Source: Candidatus Acididesulfobacter guangdongensis
GTDB lineage: Bacteria; SZUA-79; Acidulodesulfobacterales; Acidulodesulfobacteraceae
Assembly: GCA_004195045.1 (NCBI GenBank)
Contig: SGBC01000003.1
Location: 1 to 64,000, forward strand
Length of the DNA: 64,000 nt
Direction: 5' to 3'
In this document: piece by piece, positions 8,800 to 9,113 of the stretch
Position numbering within the stretch: the first letter of the stretch is position 1
How the letters are laid out: each line of letters starts with the position of its first letter
The notes under the pieces: model-generated
What the model was told of the DNA's origin: nothing
Databases searched by the model: none
Seen by the model: the letters and a program-made list of their open reading frames with translations, nothing else
Program-made: the position numbers and the translations under genes

Positions 8800-8896
8800 C
8801 ACAGTTTAAAAAATTAACTATTTTAAACCTACCGGAAAGTCTTTATTTATCTGGTAGGCACGGGCGGTCTCGAACCGCCGACCCCTACCGTGTCAA
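8800..8896. repeat. Att-site direct repeat, copy 1 (tRNA-Val 3' end)
   Basis: A 97-bp stretch is identical to 8986-9082. Bases 8852-8896 repeat the last 45 nt of tRNA-Val (minus strand). The rest is sequence downstream of the tRNA, including the inverted repeat GTTTAAAA/TTTTAAAC (8804-8828). Duplication of a tRNA 3' end is the mark left by tRNA-targeted integrases, so this is an attachment site at the edge of the conjugative element. Confidence 0.85.
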
Positions 8897-8907
8897 ATCT
8901 TTTTTAA

Positions 8908-9003
8908 AAAGGCTTTAATCAGGCTATTAAAGATATTGAAGAAGAACTATTGGAATTTGAAAAATCTTTTGACCACAAAAACGACCACAGTTTAAAAAAT
9001 TAA
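8908..9003 (+). pseudogene. C-terminal gene remnant between the att copies
   Basis: A 31-codon open stretch, without a start and preceded by an in-frame TAA at 8905, ends with TAA at 9001-9003 inside repeat copy 2. It encodes a charged helical tail (KDIEEELLEFEKSF...) such as integrases have at their C-terminus. Its stop lies 35 nt beyond the tRNA 3' end, where integrase genes of tRNA-targeted elements often finish. It is likely the scar of an earlier element. Family assignment is inference. Confidence 0.4.
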
Positions 9004-9082
9004 CTATTTTAAACCTACCGGAAAGTCTTTATTTATCTGGTAGGCACGGGCGGTCTCGAACCGCCGACCCCTACCGTGTCAA
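8986..9082. repeat. Att-site direct repeat, copy 2 (includes 3' part of tRNA-Val)
   Basis: This copy is identical to 8800-8896 and contains the functional 3' end of the tRNA. Between the copies lie only 89 bp, holding the gene remnant at 8908-9003. A third copy should exist beyond the left edge of the window if the conjugative element used the same site. Confidence 0.85.
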
Positions 9083-9113
9083 GGTAGTGCTCTAACCCCT
9101 GAGCTACGCGCCT
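9038..9113 (-). tRNA. tRNA-Val (anticodon GAC)
   Basis: The 76-nt gene has an encoded CCA. The acceptor stem AGGCGCG pairs with CGTGCCT (one G-U pair), the anticodon stem is CTACC/GGTAG with loop TTGACAC (GAC, reads GUC/GUU), and the T-loop is GGTTCGAGACC. Its 3' 45 nt lie in a 97-bp direct repeat, so it is the integration target of the element to its left. Confidence 0.95.

Follow-up and report, generated by a model that had tools for sequence, protein, structure and literature searches.

The window, which is the whole stretch of 64,000 nucleotides analysed here, lies at the beginning of contig C3 in the genome G000 (2.2 Mb, five contigs). It carries an intact tRNA-Val(GAC) gene (Table 1), found at the same place in five related genomes (G001, G002, G004, G005, and G006). 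An exact 97-bp direct repeat, with an offset of 186 bp and an 89-bp spacer, has one of its copies over the 3' half of this gene, which confirms the two identical copies including the tRNA 3' end described in the initial annotation; an exact match of this length is far beyond chance. More copies, as predicted in the initial annotation, are present in this genome as two tRNA-Val 3' fragments on contig C1 (4785-4845 and 36034-36091). Both lack a surrounding tRNA gene and lie on the plus strand in the tRNA sense, with the same polarity. The four copies have 46 bp in common, from the first anticodon-loop base to the base after CCA. An anticodon loop serving as 7-bp overlap, with the stem on both sides, is the standard site for such integrases (PMC8371274). 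Since the sequence common to the four copies is only 46 bp long, the att core is this stretch, and the other 51 bp of the repeat is element-end sequence shared by the 186-bp scar and element A, both described below; the 97-bp duplication proposed earlier stands as a repeat but not as the att core. The 51-bp element end also contains an AT-rich dyad (GTTTAAAA...TTTTAAAC; window 8806-8830 and 8992-9016), which could be a recombinase or regulator site.

Table 1. Features of the tRNA-Val(GAC) locus in the window and, where prefixed C1, on contig C1
Feature	Position	Strand	Remarks
Chimeric contig tip, outside element A	1..127	.	same sequence as C1:870997-871123, which is chromosomal and coding
Conjugative element A, left part in the tRNA sense	128..8896	-	resumes at C1:128-4790 beyond an assembly gap
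TraF	147..743	+	PF13728, E 2.6e-29
TraW-like	727..1521	+	TIGR02743, E 2.3e-28, below its cut-off
TraU	1527..2552	+	PF06834, E 5.4e-76
TraG/TraC-like P-loop ATPase	3863..4903	+	PF19044, E 2.6e-5, just under cut-off
F-type pilus assembly protein TrbC	6088..6948	+	PF09673, E 1.9e-15
217-aa tyrosine recombinase without N-terminal domain	7722..8375	+	PF00589, E 2.4e-30; XerA/XerC-like, below NCBIfam cut-offs
77-aa ORF beside the end of element A	8519..8752	+	without family match; its relatives adjoin tRNA-Lys, tRNA-Ala, and other tRNAs
Repeat copy 1: tRNA-Val 3' fragment (core 8851-8896) and identical 51 bp; left end of element A	8800..8896	-	
89-bp spacer: 3' part of a 66-aa ORF, remnant of a lost element	8897..8985	+	frame runs to stop 9001-9003, one internal TAA
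Repeat copy 2: tRNA 3' half (46-bp core 9037-9082) and 51-bp element end (8986-9036)	8986..9082	-	
Intact tRNA-Val(GAC), integration target	9038..9113	-	ARAGORN
Chromosomal flank, MFS transporter	9287..10822	-	PF07690; adjoins the tRNA in five relatives
Element A integrase, far end of A	C1:3577-4620		165 bp from the C1:4785 fragment
Element B integrase, 353 aa	C1:4849-5910		
VirB4/TraC-like, element B	C1:10283-13018		
TraG/VirD4-like, element B	C1:21115-22257		

Core copies at window 8851-8896 and C1:4785-4845 delimit element A, which, like ICEs, has an integrase near one end and att copies on both sides. It includes the F-type transfer genes for TraF, TraU, and TrbC as well as a TraW-like protein, and its part on C1 encodes ParA, a thioredoxin-like protein, a PemK-like toxin, and an integrase of 347 aa. 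The assembled parts of A, which has an assembly gap inside it, showed no relaxase. In the sister species G005, the end of A is joined directly to tRNA-Val(GAC) without the scar, so that A can occupy this gene in the absence of the 186-bp unit. This end is 98.8% identical over 404 bp, whereas the adjoining chromosome is 85-87% identical, the pattern of an element that moved recently; therefore A has recently been mobile.

Element B (31 kb) lies between tRNA-Val fragments 2 and 3 on C1. Its integrase, att copies, VirB4, and coupling protein suggest that it is also an ICE, and it additionally encodes TrbI, ParA, a GmrSD nuclease, and a DNA methylase. To the right of fragment 3, the sequence has an element end typical of the '+' class, matching the tRNA-proximal end of a further class of element, together with degraded integrase pieces; it is the remnant of an element (remnant C). 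Plain chromosome at C1:36086 was considered and ruled out by this element end and these integrase pieces.

Read in the tRNA sense, the locus comprises, in order, the tRNA, the 186-bp unit, element A, element B, the degraded element C, and the chromosome. Fragment 1 is followed by A (read from C3:8896 down to 128 and, after the gap, upwards on C1), fragment 2, B (C1:4849-36034), fragment 3, remnant C, and chromosome. The copies of the tRNA 3' end are direct, one of them in the intact gene and the rest as fragments in the same orientation. The outer flanks are adjacent in G001, which is without the array. There, tRNA-Val(GAC) has a gene matching C1:37478-38690 at a distance of 265 bp on one side and the MFS flank on the other (G001:C6). 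Because the two flanks meet at tRNA-Val in this genome, C1 past the last fragment is the other side of the site, and the reversed C3 together with C1 would form one array. There is no contiguous assembly across the array, given the gap between C3:128 and C1:128, where both contigs start with chimeric tips. The middle of A is missing in this gap, so that A could be two elements. Contig C5 (12 kb) was considered as the missing middle and rejected, its ends sharing nothing with C3 or C1 and no transfer genes being present among the ORFs read.

Here it is proposed, with a probability of about 0.85, that the locus is a tandem accretion array including A, B, and remnant C, together with the 186-bp scar of a deleted element on the tRNA side of A. 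The elements, which differ from one another and each have a tyrosine integrase of their own, would have recombined at the same 46-bp 3' half of tRNA-Val(GAC), each insertion restoring the tRNA on the chromosome side and leaving a 3' fragment at the far side. Repeated integration at tRNA-Val, with the present conjugative element in tandem on the left, was already part of the initial annotation and agrees with the C1 fragments and the G001 synteny, which put C1 beyond the left end of C3; its two layers, however, become at least four insertion layers.

The 89-bp spacer corresponds to the end of a 66-aa ORF that is intact in G005:C103 and G045:C55, with 92-94% DNA identity over 127-129 bp, where it adjoins tRNA-Lys and tRNA-Arg, respectively. 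The window's genome keeps only residues 28-66 of this protein (82% aa identity, one internal stop), and the rest of the ORF, or another copy of it, was not found anywhere in this genome. The earlier reading of a former element reduced to a scar is supported by this homology, but not that of an integrase-like C-terminal remnant, since searches of Pfam, PHROGs, and NCBIfam with the intact 66-aa homologue gave no match to an integrase. A predicted model of the protein, tried as a ribbon-helix-helix with a four-row alignment, gave one long helix with a pTM of 0.39 and was uninformative. The homology of the spacer stops at ATTTG and the core begins immediately after it with ACACGG, the same anticodon-loop position at which the fragments of other elements in the family start. 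In the scan of other genomes, no exact copy of this junction was found.

The scar element would have landed on the tRNA side of A, and a deletion starting within its 66-aa ORF and reaching the next core would have produced the 186-bp unit. The core probably took part in this deletion because the junction falls exactly at the anticodon loop, where all other fragments begin, so that the deletion to a scar proposed earlier is kept, its far junction coinciding with the crossover point of the core and not with a random endpoint. The deletion was probably made either by an integrase that used a poor secondary site matching in 3 bp (TTG) or through micro-homology. A plain illegitimate deletion through the 3-bp micro-homology, without any integrase, is held at below even odds: CAA/TTG is common to both sides of the junction and the remnant has decayed further (internal TAA), but the endpoint is the start nucleotide of all other fragments, which would be rare for a random deletion. 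It is rather unlikely that the unit was made by A integrating at a secondary site in the 66-aa ORF of a resident element, the rest of which was then lost beyond A. Such an event would also place the junction exactly at the core crossover point, and the attP of A would have both this tRNA fragment and the 51-bp end; however, the 5' part of the ORF is nowhere else in the genome, and C1:4785 runs on into element B instead of into this ORF.

At three contig ends, a stretch of exactly 127 bp recurs at unrelated places in the genome, implying an assembly k of 127. An artefactual duplication, allowed for in the initial annotation and in keeping with a fragmented assembly with chimeric contig tips, is highly improbable, since this k exceeds the 97-bp repeat, which the assembler could therefore resolve, and two other genomes have a real ORF homologous to the spacer. 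Like window 1-127, the first 127 bp of C1 are a chimeric tip copied from elsewhere in the chromosome; these tips are an assembly fault and could mislead gene calls at the window start.

The array is an ordinary and well-resolved case of tandem accretion, a known route of genome growth, in which a single essential tRNA gene gathers conjugative elements and their debris. Its scar preserves a step of which there is usually no trace, a deletion whose endpoint coincides with the recombination core. Tandem accretion with deletion has been described for the ICESt1-related elements of Streptococcus thermophilus (Pavlovic 2004, cited in PMC3218068). As far as that citing account goes, these elements also stack at one attachment site with partly deleted members bounded by att copies; unlike them, the site here is tRNA-Val and the remnant, now only 186 bp long, has its far junction right on the core. 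Tandem AICEs are known at tRNA-Lys in Frankia and at tRNA-Arg in Streptomyces avermitilis (PMC3218068), likewise with two conjugative elements at one tRNA, sometimes having different integrase subfamilies; however, the elements described here carry F-type and VirB4/TrbI-type transfer genes and not AICE-type transfer.

More notable than the array itself is the integrase family and its many tRNA targets, a known phenomenon that has a larger breadth here. Relatives of the integrase of A are present in 25 of the 30 genomes of the bacterial family. In the 87 retrieved that were near full length and had enough upstream sequence, a sample drawn by similarity to one integrase, a tRNA 3' end is located 117-284 bp from the start codon, covering 22 anticodons and at least 22 different tRNA genes, including leucine tRNAs. 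Close pairs of integrases, with proteins up to 88% identical, have different tRNA targets. On the integrase tree, a quick one in which many deep branches are weak and the label of L178 was assigned manually on the basis of the anticodon loop, at least 50 changes of tRNA label are needed, below the 62-73 obtained with shuffled labels and above the floor of 21; targets therefore appear partly inherited yet often switched, several times within well-supported pairs. In Thermococcales, the suicidal integrases related to pT26-2 use 14 tRNA targets in one archaeal family (PMC8371274). As in that case, one family has switched among many tRNA genes, but the family described here is bacterial and non-suicidal, and its 22 anticodons, leucine tRNAs among them, occur in one bacterial family.

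An end block of ~65 bp resembling that of the scar and of A directly follows tRNA-Lys(TTT, CTT), tRNA-Arg(TCT), tRNA-Ala(GGC), and tRNA-Val(GAC) in relatives and, with a weaker match, tRNA-Thr(CGT). G006:C103, from another species, contains a segment of the body of A (C1:522-3047) with 96.8% identity over 2528 bp, whereas the integrase region there is only 81.6% identical to that of A and the fragment is of tRNA-Ala. Because end blocks of the same kind directly follow the CCA of many tRNAs and an A-like body at tRNA-Ala has a diverged integrase region, the lineage of A may switch target by swapping its integrase together with a ~46-bp tRNA 3' cassette between constant element ends, a proposal held here at even odds. 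Natural pairs of integrases with different targets would make the change of target testable by comparison and simple in vitro recombination. In one integrase class, a conserved stretch like AAAACCGCAGTAAATAAGCC is found directly after the CCA of ~20 tRNAs, upstream of the integrases (L166-L255), where it precedes a TTGACA-type promoter-like stretch.

Additionally, in G045:C55 (L089:8165-18766), the end block and 66-aa ORF at tRNA-Arg(TCT) are followed by genes for Cas12a (1180 aa), ParA, and a 944-aa TrwC/TraI-type relaxase. This arrangement suggests that Cas12a is carried from place to place by a mobile element of the kind having this end block and ORF. Cas12a is absent from the window's genome and is present in only two of the 30 genomes of the family. 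Short stretches resembling Cas12a-type CRISPR repeats (TCTACAACAGTAGAAATTATT), recognised by eye, were found in G009:C1 (L086:2270-2380), where they adjoin a relative of the 66-aa ORF beside tRNA-Lys, within an interval of 4.4 kb that is delimited by a fragment of tRNA-Lys.
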